Below are positions 382-40,280 of a DNA stretch of 43,599 nt, in pieces (positions within the stretch are counted from its first letter, which is position 1; the number at the start of each line of letters is the position of its first letter). Made by a program: the position numbers and the translations under genes. Source of the DNA: a virus; the IMG/VR virus record IMGVR_UViG_3300025163_000006, positions 1-43,599 of that record. One strand, given 5' to 3'. Below the pieces are notes generated by a model, which searched no databases, was not told the origin of the DNA, and saw only the letters and a program-made list of their open reading frames with translations.

Positions 382-1533
382 GTGGTTTACTTTGGAGTGA
401 TGCCTTATTGGGTGAAGCGTAGGCTGGAAAGCCACGAGAGGGAATTAGTGAAGTCAACTGATATCACGCATTTACAGGAGCTGTGGCAACGCTTTTTTAC
501 TGGTAAAGAGGTGCCTGTCGGGTTGAACACTTATCTTGAGAATGTTTGGGTCTATGCAGCTGTTTATGTGATAGCTACACAGGCAGCGAGGACACCTTGG
601 AAGATATACAGGATAGAGGGTGATAAGCTTGAGCCCTACGATGGTGAGGCGGTAAAAGTTCTCAGCCAACCGAATGAGACGATGTCAGGTTTCGACCTAA
701 TTGAACGGACGGTGTTGCATCTGGAGCTAACTGGTCGTGCATACTGGGAATTGGCATTTGAGGGCGATAAGTACGAGATTTACGTGATACAACCGAACCA
801 CATCGAGACACTTGACCTCGATACCAAAGGTCGTGTCCGTAGCTACAAGTACAGGATACCACAGCTTGACCTTGTACGCACGTTACCTGCCCACAAAGTG
901 GTCTATTTCCACTACGCACATCCGCTGAACGAATATGATGGTATGTCACCACTTGTACCTGCTGAACATTCGATAGCTGCAGATAGAAATTCAACAAAGT
1001 TCACCAAGTATTTTTTCCAACGGGGGTTGATGTTACAGGGTGTCTTGGAATGTGATTATGCACTTCCTGACCGTGAGCGTCGCCGTATACGTGAGGAGTG
1101 GGCTGAAATGCTATCGGGTATTGAACGTGCATTCTCGATGCCACCCATATTATCAAGTGGTATACGGTATCGTGAGATAGCAACCAATCCCAAGGACATA
1201 CAGTTTGTCGACCTGCGTAAGATGGCACGTGAGGAAATACTTGCGGCACTCGGTGTACCACCGATACTGATTGGTCTAACTGAACGTGCAAGCTATGCAA
1301 ATGCAAGGGTGCAGGAACGTGTGTTCTGGTTGGTGACCATGTTACCGAAGTTGACGAAGATTGAGTGGACAATCACGAACCAGTTGCTTAGACGGCACTT
1401 CAAGGATGAGGGTGAGTTGGTGTTTAAGTTCGACACCTCGGAGGTTGAAGTCCTGACCCAACGCAACCGCAAAACAGTTGGCGAATCACTATCAACGGAA
1501 GGTAAGAAATGGGACAAACTGACCGAGACATGA
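382..1533 (+). CDS. HK97-type phage portal protein
   Basis: A 383-residue protein matching the HK97 portal family, which forms the dodecameric ring at the capsid vertex through which DNA enters and leaves. The most telling part is the C-terminal third (about 295-335), with the family pattern of an Ala-Leu-Gly-Val-Pro-Pro turn, then a Leu-Ile-Gly and a Tyr-Ala-Asn-Ala segment before a long helix. Length is normal for the family. The start is uncertain: GTG at 382 gives the full frame but lacks a clear ribosome-binding site, and ATG at 400 has GGAG only 2 nt upstream. It overlaps the next gene by 25 nt. No small terminase subunit precedes it, and the large terminase lies 28 kb away on the other strand. 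Confidence 0.9.
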   Translation: MVYFGVMPYWVKRRLESHERELVKSTDITHLQELWQRFFTGKEVPVGLNTYLENVWVYAAVYVIATQAARTPWKIYRIEGDKLEPYDGEAVKVLSQPNETMSGFDLIERTVLHLELTGRAYWELAFEGDKYEIYVIQPNHIETLDLDTKGRVRSYKYRIPQLDLVRTLPAHKVVYFHYAHPLNEYDGMSPLVPAEHSIAADRNSTKFTKYFFQRGLMLQGVLECDYALPDRERRRIREEWAEMLSGIERAFSMPPILSSGIRYREIATNPKDIQFVDLRKMAREEILAALGVPPILIGLTERASYANARVQERVFWLVTMLPKLTKIEWTITNQLLRRHFKDEGELVFKFDTSEVEVLTQRNRKTVGESLSTEGKKWDKLTET

Positions 1534-4500
1534 ACCAGAGGATGAAGGATTTAGAGGCACGTCACTTGGAGATACACAGGATATACCAGCGTATACCACT
1601 TATGCGGCGTGGTCGCCAGAATAAGCTGAGACGCAGATTGCAGAAGGAGCATGATGAGCTGGCGCCCGAGCTGGATGACCATCCAGTTTGGGATGGGCTC
1701 GACGGCATTGATGATGTGGTGCTCGTGGATTTCGATGACCAGCAGGTGATAATCAAGACTAAAGAAGGGGTTATCGCTATTTCAGATGACGAGGTACCAT
1801 ATGCGATTATGAGGTTCCCGTGGACTAAGGAGCTACCGTATTTTGAGAAACACACCTATACGGTGTATCCATTCATGAAGGTTGAGCAAGCAGGTGTACT
1901 CGACCGCTACAGCTACGTTATTCACTATAAAGGGGTCAAGCTGGCGGTTGGTGATAGGCAACCCGATGTCAAGCCCGATGTCATCATTAGCCGCAGGAAC
2001 CTGAAAGGCGGTCGTCTATTTCTACAGAAGCGTGAGGCGCAAACCCTATCGATACAGTTGAGTTATCCAGAATGGGCTATAGTTTCGCTCGGCGATAGAG
2101 CACAATTAAATGGTCGACACTTCTGTCTCGGTGTGCAGGAAGGTGATTTCAAGATACTGGTTGACCCATCGATACCACGTGACAAGCTACCTGAGGAGTG
2201 GCAGAACCCCGACGCCTTGCTGGTGACACAGGTTGATAAAGACCATTGGCGTAACATCGAGGAGTTCGAAGGTACACCACTGTATTCGGTGGCTGCTATA
2301 TTGAACCAAATCCCATACCGCAAGAAGCGTGCAATCCGAGGTCCCAAGATAGGCAAGATACGGGTACATCCGTTCAAGACCACCCACAAGGTTGGTGTGC
2401 CATCCATCGGTGTAAGGTTCGATTTTCGTGATGGTACACAGGTGTCGGTGATACCTGAGTTCCTTGAGCTGGGGCAGTTCGCTAAGAACCTAATCACCGA
2501 TACTATATGGATAGTTGGTGTCGGCGACTACAAGGAGGATGACATCAAAGAAGGTAAACTTTCGTATCAATCACTACTTGAGCTGGCAGATGAACTTAAA
2601 CCCAAAGCTATATGGTTGACCAACATCCGAAGGTCGCTGGATGACAGGCTCAAAGGTATTGACAAGGAGTTACGTGAACACTGGAATGGCGGTGTGTTCT
2701 ATAAAGGGATGGTGCTATCATCGAATAAAGAGGCTGAGAAATCTAAAGATAGCAAAAAGGTGCCGTTCTGGACGTGGGCTAAACCCGCATATCGGATATT
2801 TGAGGTCGAGGATTTGGAGCTCACACCCAACTGGGAGCCCGATGATAGGGTGGTGCTTGAGACAAAGTGTGACGGTCTACGTGTACAACCGATTGTCTAT
2901 GAAGACGGACGTATTGAGATATGGACTGACCCTGATGACATCAAGGGACCACCTGAGGAGGCGGAACGGTCGTCGAGGTTACCTGTAATTGTCAAGGAAC
3001 TGGCATCCATGAACCTCAAAGGCAGGTGGCGGTTCGATGGTGAGTTGGTGGCAATCAAAGGGAAGGAGGCTTTACATCGTACAGTCATTAACTCGTGCTT
3101 GACGGGTAAGTTTTCGCCTGAGAAGTGTGCAGATTTGGCACACCTGTTCATATTTGATGTGCTGGAAGCTGAAAGTAAAGATGTGCGTAGCTATCCATTG
3201 AAAGAGAGATTAGAGATTTTGGCGAAACTCAAAGATACAGACCACATATTCTTTAGCCGACCATCGGTCAACCTCAAAGAAAAAGGGCATTTCGGATACG
3301 TGATGCGAGTGAGAGATATAACCGAAGAGTGGCTCAACCAAATGGCAAACCAGAAAATCACCGACCCAATAGAGGTGGAGAAGTTGTCTGAAGGTGCGAT
3401 GATTAAGAAGTTGGATGCACCATATGAAGCACCACATAATAAAGGCTCCATTAAATGGAAAAAAGAACGTGAAATTGACGTGCTGGTAGTGGATAAGAAG
3501 GAGATTTATCGGCTCGGTAAACCCACGGGCAACTATAACTACACGATAGCTGTAGGACCATTAACTGAACGTGAGGCTAAACTCATACGTGAGAAGGATA
3601 AAGATAGGGTGGTTGAGTTTAGGGGCAAATACTGGAACGTCTTAGGTAAAACGGATAACACGAAGATAGATGTCGAGGTCGGTGATATTATTCGTATAGC
3701 GGCGGAGGAGGTGATTGAATATGAGACTGACGACCCAGAGGTCAAGTATTACAGCACCTATATCGCAAGGGTGTTGCAACCAGTACCTGAACGTAACATC
3801 CCTGATACACTCGAAGTGCCAAGAAGGTTAGCAGCACTCGAACCCAGACGTGTGTCGTTGGTTGAGAAAGGAAGAGGGTTTTTTAGTTTAAAGGGTGAAA
3901 TCCCGATTAATAAAAAATTAGCCGCATCCTTACCTCCGCATAAAACATATGTAGAAGCTACTTGTGGTGCAGGTGAAGTTTTTTGGTATAAAGAGCCGTC
4001 CGAGGTGGAAGTATTGAATGATATAAATCCCGATATAATGCGATTATATCGTATAGTCAAAAGATTAAAACCAGAAGATTTCGCGCAACTTTCAAAATAC
4101 AACTGGGTAGGCGATGAGGAATATTATATCAATCTTCAGAAAAGAGGTAAACCGAAGGACGACCTCGCCTTCCTCCATTGGTACATGTATCTCACCAGAT
4201 TTGGTTGGAAGTTTAGAGGCGACCCTGCCAAAGATAGTTTTCGGAAAACAGACCAAGGTAAGGAGATGCGTTGGCGTGAAAGGCTCGAAAAAGCGAAGGA
4301 ACGTTTACAACATGTGAAGTTGGAGAACAAAGACTATACTGAGGTCATAAAAGAATACGACAGCAATGATACTTTGTTTTTCTTTGACCCACCCTATCCG
4401 GGACGAGAGGTTTATTATGACACCGAGCCCTTTGATTATATCAGGCTCGCAAAAGTGTTGAAGCAGATTAAAGGGAAATTCATACTTTGTTCTATTTTAC

Positions 4501-5507
4501 CCGATGACATCAAATCTCACTTCAAAAATTTCTATATTCAGACTATTAGCTGGAAATCACCATTATCTCAATTTGGTGGCAAAGACCAAGAACTTTGTAT
4601 AATCTCGAACTTTAAATTTGATTTAAAAGGTGTGGTGAAGAAAAAGGAGAAGTATAACATCAAAGAGTTTATCGAGCAAGGTCACATACCGAAGGAAATC
4701 TACATCAAGATAGCTAAACCCAATGAACCACTACCACCTGAGTTCTATGTTGACTCACGTGAGGGTGTTGCTTGGGCACAGACGCACGTTCGAGGTTTGG
4801 AACCAGAAGATGTAGAGAAATTTAAACAGGGTAAATTATCGCTCGCTGATTTGTTTGTAGGCCATTCCATCCATGTAGATTTACGCATGGACTTAGGATT
4901 GCCTAAACTCGTGCAATGGGTGATAACTGATAACGATGTTGAGAGCTATTTCAAGATGATGCTTGGGCAACTCAGAGAAACTAAAGGCGGCGTGATGAAC
5001 GTGGCTCACAGTTTATGTATAATAAAGCCTTCGAGCGAGCCACCTGAAACTGAAAAACCGAAGATAAAGAAAGCCACACTTGAAGAGCCAAGCATTGATA
5101 AGGAAGGTGCCAAGTTATTAGAGAAGTATCAGATAATTTCAGGTTCGTATTTCATCCCCGCAGGAGGCGTGGGCGCTTCAGCCTACAAAGCTGCATGGAT
5201 GGGCTTGATTTGGAGTGGTAGAGTAAAGACTGGAGTGGCTCGACCAGATTACCACGAATATTTCTTTTATCCTGACGACGATTTACCTGAATTGAACAAA
5301 AAGCTATTCAATGGCAGATTTATCATTAAGTGCCTCGAAGACCATGGTGACCGACGCTGGGAAATCTGGAAAGCTGTACGTGACCCCAAGCCTGCTGACC
5401 CAATACTGCACAAAGATACAGGTTACCATTGGCCTCTGAAAGCCGAAGAGGTGCCAGCACTTGGTAAAGAACACTATGAGTATGGTAAGAAGGAGCCTGT
5501 GAGATGA
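1509..5507 (+). CDS. Polyprotein: MBL-like region, ATP-dependent DNA ligase, DNA adenine methylase, LigD-PE-like domain
   Basis: A 1332-residue protein with four recognisable parts. (1) About 190-400 resembles the metallo-beta-lactamase fold, with a degenerate metal motif (Gln-Val-Asp-Lys-Asp-His near 241) and a His-Pro-Phe-Lys-Thr-Thr-His segment near 287. (2) About 430-770 is an ATP-dependent DNA ligase: nucleotidyl Lys453 in E-T-K-C-D-G, motif III F-D-G-E-L at 509, motif IV E-G-A-M-I-K-K at 628, motif V near 647, then an OB-like region. (3) About 785-1040 is a D12-class N6-adenine methyltransferase with motif I at 815-823 and D-P-P-Y at 960-963. (4) About 1060-1332 resembles the LigD 3'-phosphoesterase, with H-S-I-H-V-D-L-R at 1119, some key residues uncertain. 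ATG 1509 has GGAAGG upstream; ATG 1530 is an alternative. It lies between portal and protease genes, so it is expressed with virion genes. Whether it is cleaved is unknown. Confidence 0.88.
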   Translation: MGQTDRDMNQRMKDLEARHLEIHRIYQRIPLMRRGRQNKLRRRLQKEHDELAPELDDHPVWDGLDGIDDVVLVDFDDQQVIIKTKEGVIAISDDEVPYAIMRFPWTKELPYFEKHTYTVYPFMKVEQAGVLDRYSYVIHYKGVKLAVGDRQPDVKPDVIISRRNLKGGRLFLQKREAQTLSIQLSYPEWAIVSLGDRAQLNGRHFCLGVQEGDFKILVDPSIPRDKLPEEWQNPDALLVTQVDKDHWRNIEEFEGTPLYSVAAILNQIPYRKKRAIRGPKIGKIRVHPFKTTHKVGVPSIGVRFDFRDGTQVSVIPEFLELGQFAKNLITDTIWIVGVGDYKEDDIKEGKLSYQSLLELADELKPKAIWLTNIRRSLDDRLKGIDKELREHWNGGVFYKGMVLSSNKEAEKSKDSKKVPFWTWAKPAYRIFEVEDLELTPNWEPDDRVVLETKCDGLRVQPIVYEDGRIEIWTDPDDIKGPPEEAERSSRLPVIVKELASMNLKGRWRFDGELVAIKGKEALHRTVINSCLTGKFSPEKCADLAHLFIFDVLEAESKDVRSYPLKERLEILAKLKDTDHIFFSRPSVNLKEKGHFGYVMRVRDITEEWLNQMANQKITDPIEVEKLSEGAMIKKLDAPYEAPHNKGSIKWKKEREIDVLVVDKKEIYRLGKPTGNYNYTIAVGPLTEREAKLIREKDKDRVVEFRGKYWNVLGKTDNTKIDVEVGDIIRIAAEEVIEYETDDPEVKYYSTYIARVLQPVPERNIPDTLEVPRRLAALEPRRVSLVEKGRGFFSLKGEIPINKKLAASLPPHKTYVEATCGAGEVFWYKEPSEVEVLNDINPDIMRLYRIVKRLKPEDFAQLSKYNWVGDEEYYINLQKRGKPKDDLAFLHWYMYLTRFGWKFRGDPAKDSFRKTDQGKEMRWRERLEKAKERLQHVKLENKDYTEVIKEYDSNDTLFFFDPPYPGREVYYDTEPFDYIRLAKVLKQIKGKFILCSILPDDIKSHFKNFYIQTISWKSPLSQFGGKDQELCIISNFKFDLKGVVKKKEKYNIKEFIEQGHIPKEIYIKIAKPNEPLPPEFYVDSREGVAWAQTHVRGLEPEDVEKFKQGKLSLADLFVGHSIHVDLRMDLGLPKLVQWVITDNDVESYFKMMLGQLRETKGGVMNVAHSLCIIKPSSEPPETEKPKIKKATLEEPSIDKEGAKLLEKYQIISGSYFIPAGGVGASAYKAAWMGLIWSGRVKTGVARPDYHEYFFYPDDDLPELNKKLFNGRFIIKCLEDHGDRRWEIWKAVRDPKPADPILHKDTGYHWPLKAEEVPALGKEHYEYGKKEPVR

Positions 5508-7237
5508 TAGACTTAGAGAAACTAAAACAGCTAACTAAACAAGGTGAACAGCAATACGAAACATCCGCTAACACCGAAAATTATCCCGAGTTTGTCTGGG
5601 TTCCCGAGTTCATTTCACTTGGTGGTTCAGTCCTCTACGACCGCAATGGCCGAGAACCCAACGACATAGATATAATTGTGCGTGCTGATGTCACACCTGA
5701 TGGTCGGCTATTCATATATCTTGACCCAGCTCTGAGGTTGAAGATTGAACGCATACTCAGAGAAAAGTATGGCGACCTGCCTGTTGAATGGGTGCCCAGC
5801 CGCTACGGCCCCAACTGGCGTTACAAGCCACTCTACCACCTTGTGCTAAAACCCGCTGACGGCGAGGTTGTTAGACTTGAAGAGCTTGAACCCGAATTCG
5901 CACAACAGTTTTATAAAGCATTTGAGCACGAAGGTATAGAGTTTGATATCGAGCATGCCAAAGACAGATGGCGTGAACTCATAGCCGACCTCCGTTATAT
6001 CGCAAATAGCGGGTATCCGAGATTAAAAGAAGGCAAGGTTTGGGGTAAATGGACACTTGACGATGTAAAACGTTACTTCGCACGCATAGTTGACACACTA
6101 CGAGGTTTATATTTCCCAATAATGCCACCACCAAAAGGTGATAAGAGGTGGCAAACCTCCTACTGGCAATTGTATCGTGAAGCCGAACCCTACATGAAGA
6201 CCAAGCCACCAAAAGATAAGGACGAGCTAAAGGAATGGAATGCCAAACGCCGTGCACTCCTATCCCAGAGACGTGAGGCTAAAAAGACGCATCCCGAAGA
6301 CTATAATCCCAAAGAGTTTGACGATGACAGGTTGTTACAAGATATGCGTATGTTCACGAAATGGTGGCACAAAGAGAAACATGGTGACACAGTTTTCACA
6401 CCCGAAGAGATAATCGAATTCGGCCGCAAATGTCTGAACGAAATCGTCAACCGCAACTTACCGTTAAAGATAGAGCCTGAAGACCACGAGTATTATCGTG
6501 AATTACTGAAACCTATAAAAGCTGGGCTGTATCTCGTGGCACCACACGCTGAGCTGATATACCGAGGCAATAAATCTGCAATCGTCAAATCACGTCGCTA
6601 CGATAAGATGACCAGTTTTTTAATCCTCTGTGATAACGACACAGCCTATGGTTACATCCGATGTGCTGAACCACAAGCTATTGGTTTGGAGGAGTTTAAG
6701 AAACTGCAAGATAAGCACAAGGTATCGGAAGACGAACGTCAAACTTGGTGGCCTGATGCCGATAAGCTGTATTACTACGAGATACTCAACTTCATACCAT
6801 TTGAGTCACCTCGACCAGTCAAGATACCTAAAGGTGTGCAGACCTTTATCCCAGAGGTTGAGTTCATCAAATCACGCATCCTCTGGAAAAGTGAGGAGAA
6901 ACAGCAGTTCATAGTCGTCGTCTACGAGCCTTATGTCCGTGATGCACAGGGTGATTGGACGACACCCGAAGAGATTGAGAAGATGGCTGACCAGTTCGCA
7001 CTCAAAGGTTTTCCATTCTACATCGAACATTCGACACCCAGTGACATCAAAGTCTTATGGAACTGGTGCACACCAATCGACTTCACATGGAATGGCCAGT
7101 TCATACGCAAAGGTAGCTGGCTGATAAAGGCGTGGGTGCCTGATAAACAGCTATGGGATGAGATTAAGAAAGGCGAATTCACAGGCGTATCAATCCGTGG
7201 TTACGCCAAGACAGTTAGCGATGAGGAGGCAAGATGA
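5504..7237 (+). CDS. Nucleotidyltransferase-like / XkdF-type prohead protease fusion
   Basis: A 577-residue protein that overlaps the preceding stop by 4 nt. Residues 36-60 have the nucleotidyltransferase signature: Gly-Gly-Ser at 40-42, then Asp54-x-Asp56 in a beta strand. Residues 210-340 are charged and helical. Residues 345-450 form a beta-rich domain of uncertain family, possibly ASCH/PUA-like. Residues 465-577 match the XkdF-like phage serine protease: a Tyr-Glu-Pro-Tyr-Val-Arg-Asp start, Glu-Glu-Ile-Glu helix, His509 and Ser563 in G-V-S-I-R-G as candidate catalytic residues. Such proteases mature the prohead before the capsid gene, which fits the location. The usual C-terminal 'EVSLVxxPAN' segment is missing here and appears at the start of the gene at 7989. 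Confidence 0.8.
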   Translation: MIDLEKLKQLTKQGEQQYETSANTENYPEFVWVPEFISLGGSVLYDRNGREPNDIDIIVRADVTPDGRLFIYLDPALRLKIERILREKYGDLPVEWVPSRYGPNWRYKPLYHLVLKPADGEVVRLEELEPEFAQQFYKAFEHEGIEFDIEHAKDRWRELIADLRYIANSGYPRLKEGKVWGKWTLDDVKRYFARIVDTLRGLYFPIMPPPKGDKRWQTSYWQLYREAEPYMKTKPPKDKDELKEWNAKRRALLSQRREAKKTHPEDYNPKEFDDDRLLQDMRMFTKWWHKEKHGDTVFTPEEIIEFGRKCLNEIVNRNLPLKIEPEDHEYYRELLKPIKAGLYLVAPHAELIYRGNKSAIVKSRRYDKMTSFLILCDNDTAYGYIRCAEPQAIGLEEFKKLQDKHKVSEDERQTWWPDADKLYYYEILNFIPFESPRPVKIPKGVQTFIPEVEFIKSRILWKSEEKQQFIVVVYEPYVRDAQGDWTTPEEIEKMADQFALKGFPFYIEHSTPSDIKVLWNWCTPIDFTWNGQFIRKGSWLIKAWVPDKQLWDEIKKGEFTGVSIRGYAKTVSDEEAR

Positions 7238-13583: not shown

Positions 13584-13954
13584 AACTGCTGTTCACGGGG
13601 CTACTGGAGGGTATATCATGCGATGAATGCCTTAAACACCCAGAATGGCGTGAAATCCGAGGCTGCCAAAAACGTGGGAAACATTACTTCACGTTTCGAG
13701 ACGATAACGGAAAAGCTTATCGTATCTGGCGCTGTCCACTGGCTATTGCAACTCCATTCGAGTGGGAGATTGTCCGCCTATGGTCGTACTATCACGTTCA
13801 CCACATCCTACCCGAAGCTGGTGGAATTTACGACCAGCCTGCCTTCCTGTTCGAGGCATTTGATATACTGGATTCCATCTTCACCGAACGCAGAAAGCGT
13901 GAGGAGGAGAAATGGCTAATGGAGGCACGGCGACAAGTGCAACGCTGCAGGTAG
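13179..13954 (+). CDS. Tail assembly chaperone, -1 frameshift fusion (gpGT-like)
   Basis: Slippage by -1 at the A-AAA-AAA stretch (about 13571-13577) bypasses the TAA at 13581 and continues for about 126 codons to TAG at 13952. The extension carries C-D-E-C, a Cys/His pair further on (R-G-C-Q-K-R-G-K-H), the aromatic segment Y-R-I-W-R-C-P-L-A, and a helical charged end, so it may bind zinc. Long and short forms made in fixed ratio by -1 frameshifting just before the tape-measure gene are a conserved feature of siphovirus tail assembly. The fusion overlaps the tape-measure start by 43 nt. Confidence 0.85.
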
Positions 13955-16440
13955 TCCTCAAGGCGGTAGACCAGTTCACGCCCGTCATCCAGCAGGCACG
14001 TGCAGAACTTGCACGTTTTAAAGCGACCACACAGCAGGTAGTGGCTACCGCTACACGACCCTACACCCAAGCAACTAAGCAAGCAACACAGGCAGTTCGT
14101 GAACAATCGCAAATCCTTTATATTGTTGACCGTTATGGCGGTATAACAGCCAAAACTTTAAGCCAAGAAGTGGCACCAGCCCAAGAGGAGGTTGCCAAAA
14201 AGACGGAGGATGCAACCCGTGCTTTTAGGCGGCATAAGCAACAGATTTCTGAGCTACAGCGGTTCTACATGATGTTTAAGAATATTTTGATTTCCATGTT
14301 CATCTACTTTGCTCTCCGACCATTGCTATTCGGATTACAGCAATTAATCACCAATTATGCAGAGCAGGAGGAAGCGTTATTCAGGCTGTCGGCGGTATTG
14401 AAATCCACGGGTTTTGCCGCACGTGCAACCGCTATGGAGTTGGTCGATTTTGCAGAAGCATTACAACGCCAAACTATTTTTAGTGATGAAGCCATTGAAC
14501 GTGTTGAGGCTATACTTTTGACTTTCACAAAATTGAAAGCGCCTGTGCTCAAAGATGCAACCAAAGCGGTGCTCGATATGTCAGCCGCCCTCGGCACCGA
14601 TTTACAAACCGCTGCTATACGTGTGGGTAAAGCGCTTCAAGACCCAATTTATGGGGTGACAGCGTTAAGGCGTGTCGGTGTGAACCTTGACGACCAAACT
14701 AAAGAGCTAATTCGCACGCTCTTTAAGCAAGGCAAGGTGATGGAAGCGCAACGCATAATCTTAGATGAATTAGAAACTGAATTTGGTGGTATGGCGAATA
14801 TGCTCGCTGCCACCTTACCAGGGGCTGCCCGTAAGTTTAAGAATGCTTTTGGTGATGTGCTTGAACGTATTGGCGATACTATCAATAGGGTTACCGCTTT
14901 AAATGAACGTTTATACCTAATGGCTCGTCGAATGGAAATACTCAACAAACAGGCTGAGCTATTCAGGCAAGGATGGTTTGCTACAGCTGAAAGCGCAGCT
15001 CTCAATATGATGGTGGAAGGTATCGAAACCATTGCAGGTCTATTTGCTGAGAGCAAAGAAGCTTGTCAAGCATTGGGGATTGAGTTCTCGGAGAACAAAA
15101 ATACGGTAGATGATGTGATAGGTGGTTTGGTTTCAGGAACTCGAGAGATAAATGAATGGAGTGCACGTGCCCGAAAATTATACGATATTTTTGACGACAT
15201 CATTCCAGTTATCGACACTATACGGTCTAAATATAAAGACCAAATTTCGATTTTGGAGCGGGCACGCACGATTGGAGAAGTGACCAAAGAAGATAAAGAG
15301 AAAATTGCATCCATTGACGCTGAAATAGCGGATTTGGAAGCTCGAGTCTATGACTGGGAGCGCCAATTATATAATCTCGGCAAAGAACATCTTGATAAAT
15401 TGGGTCGCTTAAGACTCCAATATGCAATTGAGGAGGTATTAGCTGTCCGTGAGCAGCTTAAAATGCGGGCAGAGCATCTCAAAATCCAAACTGGAATAGT
15501 CGATAAATTGGAAGAAGAAACTGAACAGACCGAGGAGCTTGTCGATTTATATTCCCGATGGCGAACTTTAATGAACGATATAAAGACGTCGATAGACGAC
15601 ACCCTGCTCTCACAGTATAAACAAACCGAGTATTACACGGTACAGACCAAAGCTCTCGAACTCATTCAGGCATTTCATATGTGGATAGAGACGAAAAACA
15701 TCGGCTGGTTACAGGTTATGCAACGGATAGTTGACGAGTACCCAAAACTCAACGAGCAAATAGATGCTTCCATCGTGCCAGCAGAAAAATTTTACGGTAT
15801 CTGGCAAGCTATACATAGGTTGATGAAAGAGACTTACGAGCTACCGTCACGTTATCTAATACCTTCGGGCGCATATCCACAGCCACCCGAACAGATAATC
15901 CCTGGTCGCATACGATGGTTCGGTGGTGAGATGCTCATCCCTTACGAGGTAGGTGCAAAGACAGGCGAACAAATGAAGGTCATCGTCCGTAAGGCTATAT
16001 CAGGTGCTATCGACGAGGGTAGTGAAGAGGGGTTCGATTTCGCCTCTCGGTTTGCTACGCTGTTTAGCAATTCATTTGCCGATATGTTAGCTGATGCTGT
16101 CACCACAGGGATATTCGAGGGTTTCCAGAACGTTGAGCTTCGATTTGAGGATATTATGAAGCTGATTATGCGTGAAGCAATCTCTTTAGGTATCAGGTTA
16201 ATGCTTATGAGTGCACTCGGTATAAAAGGTGCACAAGAGGGTGCATATATAACTCGTCCCTCCATTATCAGGGTGGCTGAGCGTGAACCTGAGTATATCA
16301 TACCGCTGAGCAAGATGGCGAAATTTATGCAACCCGTTGTCTATTTAAAGATAGAGACCAGAGACCCATCAACTTGGGTGCAGAGCTGGGATAAACGCAC
16401 CATCTTGGTGCTTGAACGTAAGTTGAGGCGAGGTGCCTGA
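13912..16440 (+). CDS. Tape measure protein
   Basis: 842 residues, largely alpha-helical. It follows gpG/gpGT, as tape-measure genes do. It has an Ala/Gln/Thr-rich helical start, a hydrophobic segment at about 121-145 that could insert in the host membrane, a helical region typical of minor tail proteins at 150-350, coiled coil at 430-560, and a C-terminal stretch at about 770-830 with I-R-V-A-E-R-E-P-E-Y-I-I-P-L, common at tape-measure ends. At roughly 0.15 nm per residue the tail would be about 125 nm. The start has AGGAGG 4 nt upstream. Confidence 0.88.
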   Translation: MANGGTATSATLQVVLKAVDQFTPVIQQARAELARFKATTQQVVATATRPYTQATKQATQAVREQSQILYIVDRYGGITAKTLSQEVAPAQEEVAKKTEDATRAFRRHKQQISELQRFYMMFKNILISMFIYFALRPLLFGLQQLITNYAEQEEALFRLSAVLKSTGFAARATAMELVDFAEALQRQTIFSDEAIERVEAILLTFTKLKAPVLKDATKAVLDMSAALGTDLQTAAIRVGKALQDPIYGVTALRRVGVNLDDQTKELIRTLFKQGKVMEAQRIILDELETEFGGMANMLAATLPGAARKFKNAFGDVLERIGDTINRVTALNERLYLMARRMEILNKQAELFRQGWFATAESAALNMMVEGIETIAGLFAESKEACQALGIEFSENKNTVDDVIGGLVSGTREINEWSARARKLYDIFDDIIPVIDTIRSKYKDQISILERARTIGEVTKEDKEKIASIDAEIADLEARVYDWERQLYNLGKEHLDKLGRLRLQYAIEEVLAVREQLKMRAEHLKIQTGIVDKLEEETEQTEELVDLYSRWRTLMNDIKTSIDDTLLSQYKQTEYYTVQTKALELIQAFHMWIETKNIGWLQVMQRIVDEYPKLNEQIDASIVPAEKFYGIWQAIHRLMKETYELPSRYLIPSGAYPQPPEQIIPGRIRWFGGEMLIPYEVGAKTGEQMKVIVRKAISGAIDEGSEEGFDFASRFATLFSNSFADMLADAVTTGIFEGFQNVELRFEDIMKLIMREAISLGIRLMLMSALGIKGAQEGAYITRPSIIRVAEREPEYIIPLSKMAKFMQPVVYLKIETRDPSTWVQSWDKRTILVLERKLRRGA

Positions 16441-24455: not shown

Positions 24456-24752
24456 ATGCTATCCTGTAAAATTGGTAAGCACACAGTTTTGGAGATACAG
24501 GTGCTTGGCGTTTTACAGATGCCGAAGGGTTCGTTAATCGGCTACTCAATAGTCAACCATTCACCACGTGTGGTTGACTGGTTCTCAATCAAGTTCCGTC
24601 TGCACACGGATAAAGGAGATATTGACCACTGGGTTGCAGGTGCCGATTTACCACCAAATGGCACAAAGACAAATATCATCTATTCAAATGATGCTATCAG
24701 CGAAGTGCGTGAAATAAGCATCATACAGTTCCTAACAAGTGAGGAGCTGTGA
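24456..24752 (+). CDS. Hypothetical beta-rich protein
   Basis: 98 residues from ATG 24456 (AGGAGG 5 nt upstream). Beta-sandwich-like: V-L-E-I-Q-V-L-G-V-L and a later N-H-S-P-R-V-V-D-W-F strand pair. No family recognised. Precedes and overlaps the prim-pol gene by 1 nt, so it is probably co-translated with it. Confidence 0.65.
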   Translation: MLSCKIGKHTVLEIQVLGVLQMPKGSLIGYSIVNHSPRVVDWFSIKFRLHTDKGDIDHWVAGADLPPNGTKTNIIYSNDAISEVREISIIQFLTSEEL

Positions 24753-26830
24753 TGAACATCTTGGAATTTGCTTTTAAATATGCAGATTTAGGGTGGCCAG
24801 TTGTTATCCTACACGGTATCAAAGATGGAAAATGCACCTGTGGTGACCCAGATTGTGACTCACCAGGTAAGCATCCACGTACACCGCATGGGCTGAAGGA
24901 TGCGACCACAGATAAAGCGGTGATAGAAGAGTGGTTCACTAAGTGGCCACACAGCAACATCGGTATTGTGATGGGTAAGCAATCAGGCATCTTTGCACTG
25001 GATGTCGACGGTGTTGACGGGGTTGCCAGCTTAAAGAATTTCTTATTGCCTAAGACACCGTATGCACGCACAGGTAACGGGTTTCATTTTCTGTTCAACT
25101 ATCCAGAGGATGTTGATGTACGACCCAAAGTTAAGCTGTTGAACGGTGTTGACCTGCGTGGTGAAGGCAGTTACATAGTTGCACCACCATCTATACATCC
25201 AAAAGGTGTGATGTACAGGTGGCTCACCAGTCCATTCGACACGCCAGTCGAAGACCCACCAAGCTGGTTGATAGATTTAATCAAAGAGGATAACAAACGG
25301 AGGTTACGTGCTGACATTTATTCGGGTGATAGAATAGACCCCAAGAAGGTGCTCGAAGGTGTACCCGAGGGTATGCGTAACGAAACCCTATTCCGTTATG
25401 CCTGCAGTTTAAGGGCACGTGGTGTCGCCAAAGAGGAGGCGTTGGCACTCGTGTTGCAGGCGGCGGAGAACTGCCAACCTCCTCTACCTGAAAAGGAGGC
25501 ACGTCGTGTCGTTGACAGCGCATGGCGATATGAACCAAGGATTGCACAAATAATCTCGGAAGCCGAACGTATGCATAAAGATGGCTGGACGATAGAGGCC
25601 AAACGCAACCGCTTAACTTTGCTCAACAGCTACACAGGTATGCGTGCCGTTGTCTCGAATATAACGGCCAAAGGTACCGATATTCATGGCATCTTAAAGA
25701 TTGAATTCCCGTTTTCCGATAAGCCAACACTCATACATCAGGCGAAGCTCAATTTCCTATCGTCGAGGTCACGCAAGGAATACGAGAATGCGCTTAACCA
25801 AAGGATACCAGATTTCGGCTGGAACATAATCCTCGAACGCATAGCAAACGAAGTTATGGAATATGTGGCACGTGGTGAACCCGCTATCCAGCTGACAGAG
25901 GTTGAGAACGAGCCATCGCCACCTGCTTATCTGTTGCCACCCATAGTTTATGATAAACAGCCAGTCATTCTATTTGGGCAACGTGGAGCTGGTAAATCGC
26001 TGTTGGGGCAGGTGATAGCTTTGTCGTTGGCAACAGGTGAGAACTTTATTAATAGCTCGCCCATACGACCGCTGTCTGTGCTGGTATTGGATTGGGAGAC
26101 TGAGCAATCAATCTGGGAGTGGCGCAATCATTGTTTGTTGAAGGGACAGCAGGTGTTTGACGAAAGGATACCAATTTATTATCGAAGATGTGTACGACCA
26201 CTGTGTGAGGATGTTGACCAGATAAGTGAGTTGATTGACGATTTGCATATTGATTTCGTGGTGATTGACTCATTGGGTCCCGCATGTGGTGGTAACCTGA
26301 ATGACCCCGATAGAGCGATACGATACTTTGAAGCCCTGAGGTCACTTAAGGTATCGAGCCTGACGATTGCCCATGTGGCTAAGAATGCACCTGTTGATAA
26401 GCGGACGGTGTTTGGGTCATCGTATTTCGAGAACCTTGCACGTTCGATATGGGAGGTTATACCACACTTGGAGCTGGGGGCTGACGAACTGGCGGTGGCA
26501 TTGAAGCATAAGAAAAACAACTTCGGTAAACTGCATCCCCCTATTGGTTTGAAGTTCGTCTTCGATAAAGATGCAATCTATGTTTATCAAACCAATCCAA
26601 ATGATATACCTGAGCTCGAAGAGACGGCAAGCTATCCTGAACGCATACTTTCGCTACTTGGTGTTGAGGGCAAGTTAAAGGCTTCGGAGATTAGTGAATA
26701 CCTTGAGATACCGTTGAATATCGTGAGGATAACGTTGTCGAGACTTAAACGGAAAGGTAAAGTGATAAACTTCGACGACAATACTTGGGGGCTATTGGAA
26801 CAAACGGAGGAGGAGGAGGCCGATGTGTAA
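24752..26830 (+). CDS. Prim-pol (AEP primase-polymerase) / RecA-fold helicase
   Basis: 692 residues from ATG 24752 (GAGGAG 5 nt upstream). Residues 5-175 are an archaeo-eukaryotic primase-polymerase domain: G-W-P-V-V-I, a Cys-rich insertion C-T-C-G-D-P-D-C, G-K-H-P-R-T, catalytic L-D-V-D-G at about 84-88, G-N-G-F-H-F, and G-V-D-L-R-G-E-G-S-Y-I-V-A-P-P-S. About 200-255 is a PriCT-like helical domain. About 390-600 is a RecA/RepA-type ATPase with Walker A G-Q-R-G-A-G-K-S and Walker B V-V-I-D-S-L-G. The C-terminus is a winged helix. It should prime and unwind at the phage fork and is the only replicase-like enzyme seen, so the host polymerase is presumably recruited. Confidence 0.9.
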   Translation: MNILEFAFKYADLGWPVVILHGIKDGKCTCGDPDCDSPGKHPRTPHGLKDATTDKAVIEEWFTKWPHSNIGIVMGKQSGIFALDVDGVDGVASLKNFLLPKTPYARTGNGFHFLFNYPEDVDVRPKVKLLNGVDLRGEGSYIVAPPSIHPKGVMYRWLTSPFDTPVEDPPSWLIDLIKEDNKRRLRADIYSGDRIDPKKVLEGVPEGMRNETLFRYACSLRARGVAKEEALALVLQAAENCQPPLPEKEARRVVDSAWRYEPRIAQIISEAERMHKDGWTIEAKRNRLTLLNSYTGMRAVVSNITAKGTDIHGILKIEFPFSDKPTLIHQAKLNFLSSRSRKEYENALNQRIPDFGWNIILERIANEVMEYVARGEPAIQLTEVENEPSPPAYLLPPIVYDKQPVILFGQRGAGKSLLGQVIALSLATGENFINSSPIRPLSVLVLDWETEQSIWEWRNHCLLKGQQVFDERIPIYYRRCVRPLCEDVDQISELIDDLHIDFVVIDSLGPACGGNLNDPDRAIRYFEALRSLKVSSLTIAHVAKNAPVDKRTVFGSSYFENLARSIWEVIPHLELGADELAVALKHKKNNFGKLHPPIGLKFVFDKDAIYVYQTNPNDIPELEETASYPERILSLLGVEGKLKASEISEYLEIPLNIVRITLSRLKRKGKVINFDDNTWGLLEQTEEEEADV

Positions 26831-27029
26831 GTTATTCGGTATTCTGTGGTTGATAGAAGCTGGCGTTGCGTTATATTCTCTAATTTGGTTGTTGAACGTG
26901 TTAACTGGGGGCGATTGGCATCGACAGCTGGTGCTCCATGTTAGGAGACCAGCTGGAGGTGGGTTCAAATCCCACCGCCTCCACAAGGTTGTTGATTGGT
27001 TTCATAGATATTGGGATGTTGAAGAATAA
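26823..27029 (+). CDS. Small membrane protein overlapping the tmRNA-like RNA (uncertain)
   Basis: 68-codon frame whose ATG overlaps the prim-pol stop, with GAGGAGGAGG just upstream. Residues 4-27 are hydrophobic (one membrane segment). Its 3' half runs straight through the tmRNA-like RNA at 26907-26983, so those codons may reflect RNA, not protein, constraints. If the RNA is cut out by RNase P and RNase Z the message would be destroyed. Confidence 0.35.
   Translation: MCKLFGILWLIEAGVALYSLIWLLNVLTGGDWHRQLVLHVRRPAGGGFKSHRLHKVVDWFHRYWDVEE
26907..26983 (+). ncRNA. tmRNA-like tRNA-like domain without mRNA region (77 nt)
   Basis: A 7-bp acceptor stem joins GGGGGCG (26907-26913) and CGCCTCC (26976-26982), with discriminator A26983. 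The third pair is G26909-U26980, the G3-U70 identity signal for alanyl-tRNA synthetase. There is no D stem; instead GGCATCGAC matches the tmRNA D-loop pattern GG-NN-UCGAC. The T arm is GTGGG-TTCAAAT-CCCAC (26959-26975), preceded by TGGA as in tmRNAs. In place of the ~250-nt coding and pseudoknot region there is one hairpin: GCTGGT/ACCAGC (6 bp) plus CTCC/GGAG (4 bp) with loop ATGTTA. A standard tRNA reading fails, as no 5-bp anticodon stem forms. The CCA end is not encoded (ACA follows). Ribosome rescue, decoy or alanine donor roles are open. Confidence 0.75.
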
Positions 27030-27039
27030 GGAGGTGCGA

Positions 27040-27351
27040 ATGCCAGTTAAAGTTATTTCGTCAGATAAAATCAAAAGAGGAGAAAGGAAGGTAAATTGTT
27101 ATGATTGTAAATATTGCGGTGAGATTCCTGGGAGCGCACACAAAAAATGTCTCTATGCCCTGAGAGACCAAGATAATCCTATTATTAATCTCCTTTCCCT
27201 GTTCGGAGGTTTACGAATGGATATTCCTCGCATGACTGTAGTTTTAATAGATACGGGAGTAAGAAGAGGTTGGTGTAGTTTTCCTTTTAATTTCGACCCA
27301 ATCTGGATTTATGATTGCGACAAATTTACCCCTAAAGAAAAGGAGACATGA
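27040..27351 (+). CDS. Cys-rich zinc-finger-like hypothetical protein
   Basis: 103 residues from ATG 27040 (AAGGAGG 6 nt upstream); earlier in-frame codons cover the tmRNA-like RNA and are rejected. Residues 18-40 contain C-x-x-C-x-x-C and another Cys, with two more Cys near 75 and 92 (W-C-S-F-P-F and D-C-D-K-F). A small metal-binding protein, function unknown. Its stop overlaps the start region of the next gene. Confidence 0.65.
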   Translation: MPVKVISSDKIKRGERKVNCYDCKYCGEIPGSAHKKCLYALRDQDNPIINLLSLFGGLRMDIPRMTVVLIDTGVRRGWCSFPFNFDPIWIYDCDKFTPKEKET

Positions 27352-28579: not shown

Positions 28580-28915
28580 TTACCAGTATCCGAAGGCTTT
28601 GAGCCGACGTTCAATCTCAGACTTCAATTTATGATTTTTTGCTACTGATAGAACCTCATCAGTCAACACCTTACCTCTCAGCGGTGACGAACTCAACACC
28701 CTTAACTCCTCACTATCAATAGGCACACCGAAGGTGACGAACCACCCGCACTTCGGGCATTTCATATAGACATCGACATGCAGGAACCCACGAGCTGCCT
28801 GACCCGCTGTAAAGTGATGCACTATTAGCTCTTCGCCGTCGAATGCACAGTATTTCGGTGTCTTGGGATAAGGTAATGCACCATGTGCAGTCTGTAAGAT
28901 TTCCCAATCTCTCAT
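28580..28915 (-). CDS. Hypothetical zinc-binding protein
   Basis: 111 residues from ATG 28915, which overlaps the terminase TGA and has GGGAGG 5 nt upstream; a longer frame inside terminase is rejected. C-x-x-C (M-K-C-P-K-C-G-W-F-V) at about 55-60, preceded by a Cys-Ala-Phe-Asp-Gly-Glu segment. Strand-rich then a helical, basic end. Unknown; co-translated with terminase. Confidence 0.65.
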   Translation of the reverse strand: MRDWEILQTAHGALPYPKTPKYCAFDGEELIVHHFTAGQAARGFLHVDVYMKCPKCGWFVTFGVPIDSEELRVLSSSPLRGKVLTDEVLSVAKNHKLKSEIERRLKAFGYW

Positions 28916-30447
28916 CACAACCTCCCAATAGTTGGTCGTTGATAAGCCTCTTTCGCCCACAGTGCTATCACAAGGCTATCAGCGTAATCGGGTGACCTAT
29001 GGAGTTTCTTACGGATGGCATCTTTAGGTAGGATAAGGATTTTGTTGTCTTTGGAATACTTGTATTCCATGACTTCCAAGTCTTGACGCAAGAATTTCAC
29101 ATACGGGTCGCTGGCACGTGCAACCCTCAGCTGTCCTCTGAATGCCAACCTCTGCAACAGGAAATAAGCTTGTGCACGCAGGTTCTTATATGCAGGTTCG
29201 GTTGCATGGTATGACGACATGAATCCCTTAACTGGTAACCCACGTTTCGATAAGATGTCTATCAACCCGCCACCCAACCCCATAGCATCCACCAAGATGA
29301 TGAGCGGGTCGTAGTGTTCATACAACTCCTCAATCCTTTCTGCCAGCTCGTCAAGGTACAATCTGTAAGCATATTGGTTAAGGATAACGTTCTTTTCATT
29401 CAACACAGTCACCACCGATACGTCTTCACCGCCACGTGCAACATCAACCCCGAAGTAGGTGTACTCCCAGCGGTCTTCGAGCTCATCCTTGGGTTCGAGC
29501 ATCATCTTAAGAGCATCACGTGTAAGCAACCGCTGGGTAAAATGCTCAGGGGGCAATTCACCCAACACCCGTACCATGAACTGTGGTGACCTTGCACCCC
29601 AGCGTTCTTTCATATTCTCGACCCACTCCTTGGTGACGAGCCCTGGGATAACGATTTTACCCTCCTTTACGTTCGGACAATCATAGCATGAGATATGGAT
29701 ATGATACCAGTTGGGGTTGTCAAAAGTGTCAACAAACCTACCAGTCCCTGTCTCGGGTGGGTTACCAATCGCCAGTATCCTCGAATATTCAGTTGTTAAG
29801 AACCTATCCTCCGCTATGTCGAAAATCTCGTCATCTATGCCACCAGCCTCATCAATCACCAACAACCTGTGTTGTGCGTGGAAGCCGCCCCATCGAACAG
29901 CTCGGTTGGTCGACATGCCGAAGGCGCTACGGTCGTTGGTCAACGCCCACTCCCATTTGAACAGCTTGCCACCAAGCTCTGGACGCCACCACCTGTGGAT
30001 TTCACCCCAAAGGATTTTAATCACTTGCCTAAATGATGGAGCAGTTGAAATAACTAACGTATCGCTATCGAAAGCTTCCATGAACCACAATACAGCTATT
30101 GCAGCGGTCGTACTTTTACCCACACCATAGCCTGACCGTACCGATACGCGTTTGTGGTCACGTAGGGCTTCAAGGATTTCCTTCTGCTTCTCCCAAAGCT
30201 TGATTTCAAGGATTTTCTCAGCAAAATAAATTGGGTCTTTCCAGTACCTTTCTGGGGGGTCAGGTAGCTTAGGCTCTGGTATTTTAGCGGCGGCACCACG
30301 ACCCCAGCGATAGAGGATGTAACGAACTTCCTTTTCAGTAAGACCAGTTTCTATCGCTATCTCGGTGTTGTTGTAATCATCCGTCTTTAACTGGATAACC
30401 CGTTCAATCAACTCACGTGGATACAACGTGTCATGCTTACGGGGCAT
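28915..30447 (-). CDS. Terminase large subunit with N-terminal HTH
   Basis: 510 residues. Residues 8-50 form a helix-turn-helix (E-L-I-E-R-V-I-Q-L ... T-E-I-A-I-E-T-G-L-T-E-K-E-V-R), like the DNA-binding part of small terminases. Residues 70-240 are the packaging ATPase: Walker A G-Y-G-V-G-K-S (106-112), Walker B L-L-V-I-D-E-A-G (catalytic E200). Residues 325-500 are the RNase H-like nuclease with Asp335, Asp387 and Asp490. No separate small terminase was found, so the fused HTH may choose the DNA. It is the next-to-last gene of the leftward unit, far from the portal, and transcribed from its own promoter. There is no ribosome-binding site before the ATG, and the predicted transcript starts at or next to it. 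Confidence 0.92.
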   Translation of the reverse strand: MPRKHDTLYPRELIERVIQLKTDDYNNTEIAIETGLTEKEVRYILYRWGRGAAAKIPEPKLPDPPERYWKDPIYFAEKILEIKLWEKQKEILEALRDHKRVSVRSGYGVGKSTTAAIAVLWFMEAFDSDTLVISTAPSFRQVIKILWGEIHRWWRPELGGKLFKWEWALTNDRSAFGMSTNRAVRWGGFHAQHRLLVIDEAGGIDDEIFDIAEDRFLTTEYSRILAIGNPPETGTGRFVDTFDNPNWYHIHISCYDCPNVKEGKIVIPGLVTKEWVENMKERWGARSPQFMVRVLGELPPEHFTQRLLTRDALKMMLEPKDELEDRWEYTYFGVDVARGGEDVSVVTVLNEKNVILNQYAYRLYLDELAERIEELYEHYDPLIILVDAMGLGGGLIDILSKRGLPVKGFMSSYHATEPAYKNLRAQAYFLLQRLAFRGQLRVARASDPYVKFLRQDLEVMEYKYSKDNKILILPKDAIRKKLHRSPDYADSLVIALWAKEAYQRPTIGRL

Positions 30448-34836: not shown

Positions 34837-35055
34837 CTAACCTCCTGCTATAATCCTTGTCAAATACGGTATGATGTATAAGAAGCTTAAACACAACCAG
34901 ATTAGCAGAAGTATGATGAAACCACCAGATATCTCCTTTTCCTTCTCTTTATTGCCTTGTATCGCCATCACCAGCAATCCGATAGCTACCAGCACAACGA
35001 GAAACAAACCGATGCAGGCACCTAAACACCTGAGCACATGCAGGAATAAACTCAT
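34837..35055 (-). CDS. Two-segment membrane protein
   Basis: 72 residues; hydrophobic helices at about 5-31 and 45-66 with a charged linker K-E-K-E-K-E. AGGAGG before ATG; overlaps the RecT-like stop by 4 nt. Unknown. Confidence 0.6.
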   Translation of the reverse strand: MSLFLHVLRCLGACIGLFLVVLVAIGLLVMAIQGNKEKEKEISGGFIILLLIWLCLSFLYIIPYLTRIIAGG

Positions 35056-36065
35056 TTAGCCTCCTGTTTCTTAAGTTTCTTATCTATGATTTTGTTCAAA
35101 GCTTCCAGTTGCCCGATAGTTATGTTTTCTTTTACTTTCTCTTTTTCTAGAAATTCGAGCCAATCAGTATCGAACTCCCATAACTTACTTTTAATTATGT
35201 CGTCGGGTAGCTCATCGGGGTTGATGCGCTTATCTTGCAGTTGCTCAACTTTCTCGAGTATCCTACGGTAGCGGAACTCGAACCTTGAGCCCTTGATTTT
35301 CATATCTGGGTTCTCTTTCAACGTTTTCTTGTAATCGTCGATGATTTTTAGCAACACTTCGAGCGTGTAGCTGGGATTGAGTTTGAAGTTTGTGCGTTCG
35401 GTTTCATGCAGGTCTTTTGGCCAGAACTTGATAATCTTCTCGAATTCCTTAACCTGTTCGGGGGTTGCTGTGCCATTGGATTTGGGTGGCTCAGGCTTAA
35501 CCTCTTCTGCTTCGGGCTTATCCTCAATCTCAGCTTCTATATCCTCAACAGTGGTCTTCTCACCTTCAGACATCTCCTCTATCGTGTAGACACCGAGTAC
35601 AAGGTCGGGTGCATACCGACGTATAGCTTTGGCTACTGCACGCCAGAATAACATGTTCTCAGGTTGCTGTTTCCAGTTCTTTTTCGACGTTAACCCTAAA
35701 CGCTCCGCCTCCTGAATGGTGAACTCTTCCTCGTATTCCTTGCCTTCTGGACGTTTGATTTTAATCCGACATCGTTCGGCAGAGCTTTCCAGTATCTCTA
35801 TTTCACCACCGTATTTCCTGAATAACGCAAGCAATAGCTGGCTTTGGACACAGAGTTTACCATTGACGATTGCCATCATCTGTAGAGCCTGCATCGGTGG
35901 GATGCCGAGCTCACGGCCAAACTCCACAATCGCTATCGCCTGCGTCGGGTTTTCGAGATGAGTGAATAAACCACTCTTATACAATACGTTGGCTACCTTC
36001 TCAAGGGTTTCCCAAGATGGAGGTAAGGTTTCTTTTTCGACGATTTCTTTACTCTTCTGGTTCAT
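35052..36065 (-). CDS. RecT-like single-strand annealing protein
   Basis: 337 residues from ATG 36065 (AAAGGAG 5 nt upstream). About 40-165 matches the RecT family: A-I-A-I-V-E-F-G-R-E-L-G-I-P-P-M-Q-A-L-Q, N-G-K-L-C-V-Q-S-Q, and a final F-W-R-A-V-A-K-A-I-R-R-Y-A-P-D-L-V-L-G-V-Y. Acidic linker 170-200, then a second helical domain (200-337) of unknown type, so it is longer than RecT. It would pair single strands made by the nearby nuclease, for recombination or concatemer formation. Confidence 0.8.
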   Translation of the reverse strand: MNQKSKEIVEKETLPPSWETLEKVANVLYKSGLFTHLENPTQAIAIVEFGRELGIPPMQALQMMAIVNGKLCVQSQLLLALFRKYGGEIEILESSAERCRIKIKRPEGKEYEEEFTIQEAERLGLTSKKNWKQQPENMLFWRAVAKAIRRYAPDLVLGVYTIEEMSEGEKTTVEDIEAEIEDKPEAEEVKPEPPKSNGTATPEQVKEFEKIIKFWPKDLHETERTNFKLNPSYTLEVLLKIIDDYKKTLKENPDMKIKGSRFEFRYRRILEKVEQLQDKRINPDELPDDIIKSKLWEFDTDWLEFLEKEKVKENITIGQLEALNKIIDKKLKKQEAK

Positions 36066-36294
36066 CATAACTCCTTTTCAACATGCAAAATAAATCTGGC
36101 AATATGTCTCTATGTTTGGCATTTGTAATTAAGAAATCGCCATCGCTATCCCAGATTATACTATACCATCTATCTTGGGGTAGTGTCTTTAGTAATTTTT
36201 CAAACTCCGCGATAGGAAGGTGAAACACGGTGTAGCCTTCCCTTGTCACTTCTATATAATCACTTTCACCGTTTAAAAATAAACCTTTAATCAT
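36049..36294 (-). CDS. Hypothetical protein
   Basis: 81 residues from ATG 36294 (AAGGGG 6 nt upstream; GTG at 36297 is too close). Strand-rich, with a helix L-P-I-A-E-F-E-K-L-L-K and W-Y-S-I-I-W-D-S-D-G. Overlaps both neighbours. Unknown. Confidence 0.55.
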   Translation of the reverse strand: MIKGLFLNGESDYIEVTREGYTVFHLPIAEFEKLLKTLPQDRWYSIIWDSDGDFLITNAKHRDILPDLFCMLKRSYDEPEE

Positions 36295-40197: not shown

Positions 40198-40280
40198 TGG
40201 GCAGGGGGAGGATTCGAACCTCCGAGCCTTTCGGCAGCGGATTTACAGTCCGCCTCCTTTGACCGCTCGGACACCTGCCC
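40198..40280 (-). tRNA. tRNA-Tyr (anticodon GUA)
   Basis: 83 nt, minus strand. Acceptor GGGCAGG/CCTGCCC with discriminator A, D arm with GTCCGAGCGGTC, anticodon loop CTGTAAA (GUA), long variable arm (class II, as in bacterial tRNA-Tyr), and T arm GGAGG-TTCGAAT-CCTCC. No encoded CCA (ATTT follows). It lies 4 nt downstream of the structured RNA and presumably is released by RNase P from the same transcript. Confidence 0.93.

Follow-up and report, generated by a model that had tools for sequence, protein, structure and literature searches.

A tRNA-like domain (TLD) that stands alone, without the mRNA-like part of transfer-messenger RNA (tmRNA), is known as a phage gene from mycobacteriophage DS6A (Mao et al. 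2009, as cited in passages of PMC4131195 and PMC11915505), which is the phage case named in the text of the 2025 tmRNA database (PMC11915505). According to the sections of those two papers that treat it, a DS6A-like TLD-only RNA strongly inhibits tmRNA in Escherichia coli whether or not it is charged, perhaps by titrating SmpB. Here we describe an element of this kind in a tailed phage known from a 43.6-kb viral record (IMG/VR record IMGVR_UViG_3300025163_000006, positions 1 to 43,599; the whole of this stretch is called the window below). Taken together, sequence, fold, conservation and covariation make it nearly certain that the phage encodes a TLD-only tmRNA at positions 26907-26983.

Of the 97,179 entries in the tmRNA database, 9 are unique standard-form tmRNAs that lack a tag reading frame (PMC11915505). 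The plastid tmRNAs of Mallomonadaceae that have no coding sequence (CDS; ~65 bp) and the mostly permuted mitochondrial CDS-less tmRNAs of jakobids and oomycetes share with the window element a TLD without a tag frame, but they are organellar and, unlike a phage TLD, presumably work for the organelle that encodes them, together with an SmpB of nuclear origin. The full tmRNAs of Bxz1-like mycobacteriophages, Bacillus phage G and Melnitz are also phage-borne ssrA derivatives with a TLD, but they keep the tag reading frame and pseudoknots, and the window element has neither. Finally, an isolated alanyl-TLD has been crystallised with SmpB and EF-Tu on a stalled ribosome (PDB 4ABR, as cited within PMC3968760), so that a TLD alone is deliverable to a stalled ribosome, although this construct is a laboratory fragment and not a phage gene.

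A search with cmscan placed the Rfam tmRNA model RF00023 on the plus strand at 26907-26983 with 66.8 bits (E 5.3e-24; cut-off 47), in an alignment that runs end to end over model positions 1-374 while 303 of the 374 positions are absent. The original prediction for this DNA, a reading of the letters without database searches, had proposed a stand-alone tmRNA-type TLD here, and the score together with the missing mRNA-like part bears this out. It had also named a better score as an ordinary tRNA as grounds for giving the idea up; the tRNA model, which belongs to the same Rfam clan, was outscored by the tmRNA model. We rejected an ordinary tRNA for this reason and because the element has no conserved D stem and no 7-nt anticodon loop, and because ARAGORN, run on the window, called only a tRNA-Tyr elsewhere and nothing at these positions. 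Across 18 bacterial genomes searched with the same model, tRNA-sized hits other than TLD-only ones reached at most ~43 bits. The predicted fold has a free energy of -43.2 kcal/mol (z -4.97), equalled by none of 200 shuffled sequences, and its parts are as follows.

26907-26983, plus strand: the whole TLD-only element, 77 nt with CCA not counted, 66.8 bits
26907-26913, plus strand: acceptor 5' strand GGGGGCG with G3, 7 of 7 pairs formed with 26976-26982
26916-26925, plus strand: TGGCATCGAC, the D-loop replacement, with U17 at 26921 and G19 at 26923 (E. coli ssrA numbering)
26925-26955, plus strand: P2 of 8 bp, bulged G26933 and apical 4-bp hairpin CTCC-ATGTTA-GGAG (from the fold)
26956-26958, plus strand: linker GAG, in which A26957 corresponds to A334 of E. 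coli ssrA
26959-26975, plus strand: perfect T arm GTGGG-TTCAAAT-CCCAC (from the sequence)
26976-26983, plus strand: CGCCTCC, the 3' strand of the acceptor, then discriminator A (from the sequence)

The E. coli numbering was checked against MG1655 ssrA. The 7-bp acceptor with G-U as its third pair, the discriminator A, the replacement of the D arm by TGGCATCGAC and the perfect T arm had all been predicted and are confirmed. The element has G3-U70 and A73, the identity features for alanine; an AT dinucleotide separates the acceptor 5' strand from the D region, which has the GG-NN-UCGAC form without a D stem. A P2 helix is present as well, pairing 26925-26932 with 26948-26955 and, with the apical hairpin and its 6-nt loop, making 12 bp with one bulge, where the original prediction had seen a single 10-bp hairpin. 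Full tmRNA has its mRNA-like domain, with tag reading frame and pseudoknots, where this hairpin-capped P2 stands, and the element is not a full tmRNA. Like the DS6A RNA it is phage-encoded, contains little beyond the TLD and has no CDS. By the features compared, it belongs with, and probably works like, the DS6A-type TLD-only tmRNAs, DS6A being a different phage that is compared here through its published description.

The same layout recurs in other phages. A first search pattern, which fixed only TGG..TCGAC and the T arm, matched at least 119 viral stretches, and a second additionally fixed the acceptor GGG and TCCA; the D and T motifs are thus set by the patterns, and the viral records are mostly fragments. 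Acceptor pairing was required as the filter for true TLDs. It took out some 20 false matches of the first scan, among them pairs of tRNA T arms and a repeat whose acceptor strands do not pair, and left at least 85 distinct viral sequences, the window included, and a control scan with the second pattern in which the UCGAC motif was scrambled gave 0 matches. Because at least 84 other viral sequences share the layout against none in the control, it is not a product of chance. TLD-only tmRNA was known from one phage but nearly undocumented, so what is new is this breadth; the original prediction was unaware both of the DS6A precedent and of how widespread the form is. In 50 viral records an RF00023 hit over or near the cut-off corresponded to the ~80-nt form, and none of these 50 held a full tmRNA or an SmpB. 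Copies scoring 57-64 bits lie unannotated among the tRNAs of the cultured Streptomyces phages LuckySocke, Shaeky and BRock; the annotation of BRock and Shaeky used ARAGORN (PMC7453282, PMC8407747). With these annotation-missed copies, a phage attack on ribosome rescue becomes directly testable in laboratory hosts.

Clustering at 88% gave 73 representatives, 68 of 73-85 nt and five of 60-65 nt. The short subtype (60-65 nt; L020, L024, L041, L067, L076 and L174) has a P2 of 5-6 bp and a GGAU linker.

Since MAFFT aligns the 5' strand of the acceptor wrongly, pairs were counted by segment. Position 3:70 is G-U in all 68 longer representatives, a figure that the second pattern itself forces in part; in the first set, whose pattern left the acceptor free, it is G-U in 66 of 69, and of the three exceptions one looks misregistered, one looks rearranged and one is U-U. 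The discriminator is A in 88 of 90. Among the 68, 4-6 pair types are seen at each of T-stem pairs 1 and 2 and acceptor pairs 4-7 (5-6 for acceptor 4-7). P2, which no pattern forced, was measured in the window and 67 relatives: 93% of cells are paired over seven pairs, against 31-48% when slid by 1-2 positions, and pairs 2-7 show 5-6 pair types with 25-44 double-change cells each. The compensatory changes in other phages that the original prediction had proposed to look for were thus found, with the G-U pair and the P2 pairing conserved. The tip of P2 reads AAAG-CCG-hairpin-CGG-A in most relatives, and that of the window differs. Of the 68 representatives, 66 have A as the A334 equivalent, again unforced by the pattern, while the neighbouring bases vary. 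Cryo-electron microscopy structures, as described in part of PMC8363625, place A15, A334 and U17 around the SmpB Trp122 pocket; the window TLD has the U17, G19 and A334 equivalents. The covariation shows that the family is under selection.

Such covariation also bears on whether the element is a relic of host ssrA, either a piece left at an attachment site or a gene that has decayed and yields no product, a possibility that the original prediction had itself raised against its reading. Some phages do carry an ssrA 3' end beside an integrase: in Mycobacterium phages Shandong1 (L195) and Validus (L201) such fragments lie just upstream of a tyrosine integrase and are likely phage attachment sites (attP). 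Those fragments lack the 5' half, however, whereas the window TLD is complete and paired, and neither an integrase nor a resolvase (PF00589, PF00239) was found among the window proteins; an attP fragment was rejected on these grounds. A strict pattern run on 84,980 bacterial and archaeal genomes gave 35 loci, and 27 of these are a separate tRNA-like type of Eremiobacterota, leaving 8 to set against the at least 119 viral stretches. With selection across the family as well, we consider a relic highly improbable.

The element lies within the following phage setting.

382-1533: portal
5504-7237: protease
13912-16440: tape measure
24749-26830: primase-helicase, with its stop at 26830
26831-27039, plus strand: 209-bp gap containing the TLD, flanked by the primase-helicase gene and the gene that follows on the same strand
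28915-30447, minus strand: terminase
35052-36068, minus strand: RecT-like protein
40198-40280: tRNA-Tyr with a long variable arm

The gene 3' of the TLD starts with ATG at 27040, preceded by GGAGGTG. A long variable arm on tRNA-Tyr is a bacterial trait, so the host of this phage is bacterial and should possess tmRNA and SmpB. SmpB is absent from the window proteins, and a full tmRNA was likewise not found in the window. Terminators near the TLD were no commoner than in shuffled sequence.

From sequence comparison and the published precedents, we propose that the TLD RNA probably jams or redirects host ribosome rescue. The form of this proposal that we favour, and hold to be reasonably likely, is an alanylated decoy that competes with host tmRNA for SmpB, EF-Tu and stalled ribosomes. 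RNase P and 3' nucleases would release the RNA from the operon transcript, and it would receive CCA, after which host alanyl-tRNA synthetase would alanylate it through G3-U70. It could then bind host SmpB and EF-Tu and take up the SmpB and the stalled ribosomes that host tmRNA would otherwise occupy, and trans-translation and tagging would be damped during infection. The original prediction had suggested much the same role; its interpretation is partly supported, in that its assignment of the TLD stands and the decoy role fits the published work on DS6A-like RNA and alanyl-TLD.

Several observations weigh against this proposal. A pure SmpB sponge would have no need of the strict G3-U70, since the DS6A-like RNA inhibits uncharged too. 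Base 15, which belongs to the Trp122 pocket, is C in the window and not A. CCA is not encoded, the discriminator being followed by CAA, and sigma-70-like promoter sites near the TLD occur at the chance level of shuffled sequence. Moreover, searches by terminase or primase found no relatives in viral contigs and only distant hits in phage records, so with no close phage relative found the conservation rests on the TLDs of unrelated phages.

The strict keeping of G3-U70 suggests that charging and EF-Tu delivery matter, so the ribosome may be where the RNA acts, beyond a sponge for SmpB. TLD-only tmRNAs might form a large, unannotated family of charged RNAs that is a common phage tool against trans-translation and has the ribosome as its site of action, where each RNA would take over the nascent chain and allow its untagged release, doing more than soak up SmpB; we regard this extension as possible though doubtful. 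Strict G3-U70 and A73 would also suit an active minimal rescue RNA, in which the charged TLD with SmpB enters the stalled ribosome and takes the nascent chain with one alanine. The ribosome would be freed without a degradation tag, so that phage proteins are protected and rescue is not blocked, and mitochondrial tmRNAs without tag frames do persist alongside SmpB, according to the relevant part of PMC11915505. We nevertheless think active rescue unlikely: the TLD offers no resume codon for the step after translocation, the DS6A-like RNA inhibited tmRNA in E. coli, and among the 50 viral records only 1 has an RF-1-domain protein, which could finish release, while none was found in the window.

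In some phages the TLD is part of a tRNA array; records in which several tRNAs accompany it include L016, L100, L102, L167 and L172. Such arrays have been proposed as anti-defence in the portion of PMC12803027 concerned with them. The alanine-charged RNA might accordingly serve another system, as bait for a host defence that cuts tRNA or tmRNA or as an alanyl donor for a transferase. Neither role needs the A334 equivalent that contacts SmpB or the UCGAC motif, yet both are conserved. Genes neighbouring the TLD loci belong to head, protease, terminase, replication and WhiB families. No partner gene recurs beside the TLDs, and integrase is not among the 25 commonest neighbour families; frames that overlap the TLDs themselves come from mechanical calling and were disregarded. 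We therefore judge a role in another system very unlikely, and keep the decoy in host ribosome rescue as the preferred reading.

Two further frames of the window deserve mention. A 68-codon frame at 26823-27029 (plus strand), with a hydrophobic start and a GGAGGAGGAGG stretch upstream, overlaps the entire TLD. If RNase P were to cut the TLD, the mRNA of this frame would become a non-stop message; a passage of PMC4131195 notes the same situation for smpB in Carsonella. Between portal and protease, a 1332-aa frame at 1509-5507 (plus strand) matches Pfam models for ATP-dependent DNA ligase, D12 DNA methyltransferase and, weakly, a metallo-beta-lactamase fold.

Among the 8 genomic loci outside Eremiobacterota, 7 are TLD-only elements that score above the tmRNA cut-off, and a full ssrA occurs as well in at least 4 of those genomes. 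In Cellulomonas massiliensis (L188:9780-9862) a TLD-only element lies ~0.4 kb downstream of a tRNA-Arg(CCT) and near an SNF2 helicase (DpdE-like score) and a WYL regulator, possibly within an integrated element. The Ca. Eremiobacterota / WPS-2 type (L121-L127, L130, L132-L134, L136-L139, L141, L143 and L145-L154) is a ~72-nt tRNA-like RNA, of which each genome has a single copy or two, in some cases arranged in tandem. It has a GGGGCGN acceptor with G3-U70, UCGAUGGUGUCGAC and a stem with a conserved CYGANAC/CCGUCAC loop; some copies are called tRNA-Ile, tRNA-Asp or tRNA-Val by ARAGORN, and full ssrA is also present in 10 of 10 genomes checked.

Odd tmRNA-like elements occur in further phages. 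Streptomyces phage Riptide (L197, ~1977-2053) has a TLD-like element that keeps the acceptor, P2 hairpin and T arm, with GG..UCGAC eroded. Permuted tmRNA genes in two pieces, which score above the Rfam cut-off but are unannotated in the deposited records, are present in Pseudomonas phage SM1 (L194), Ruegeria phage RpAliso (L198), Caulobacter phage CcrBL9 (L200) and Tunturiibacter phage Tunturi_4 (L199). In Tunturi_4 the permuted tmRNA adjoins a gene with the annotation RF-1-domain release factor (ArfB-like; L199:1623-1970 and 1975-2384), placing two ribosome-rescue genes side by side.
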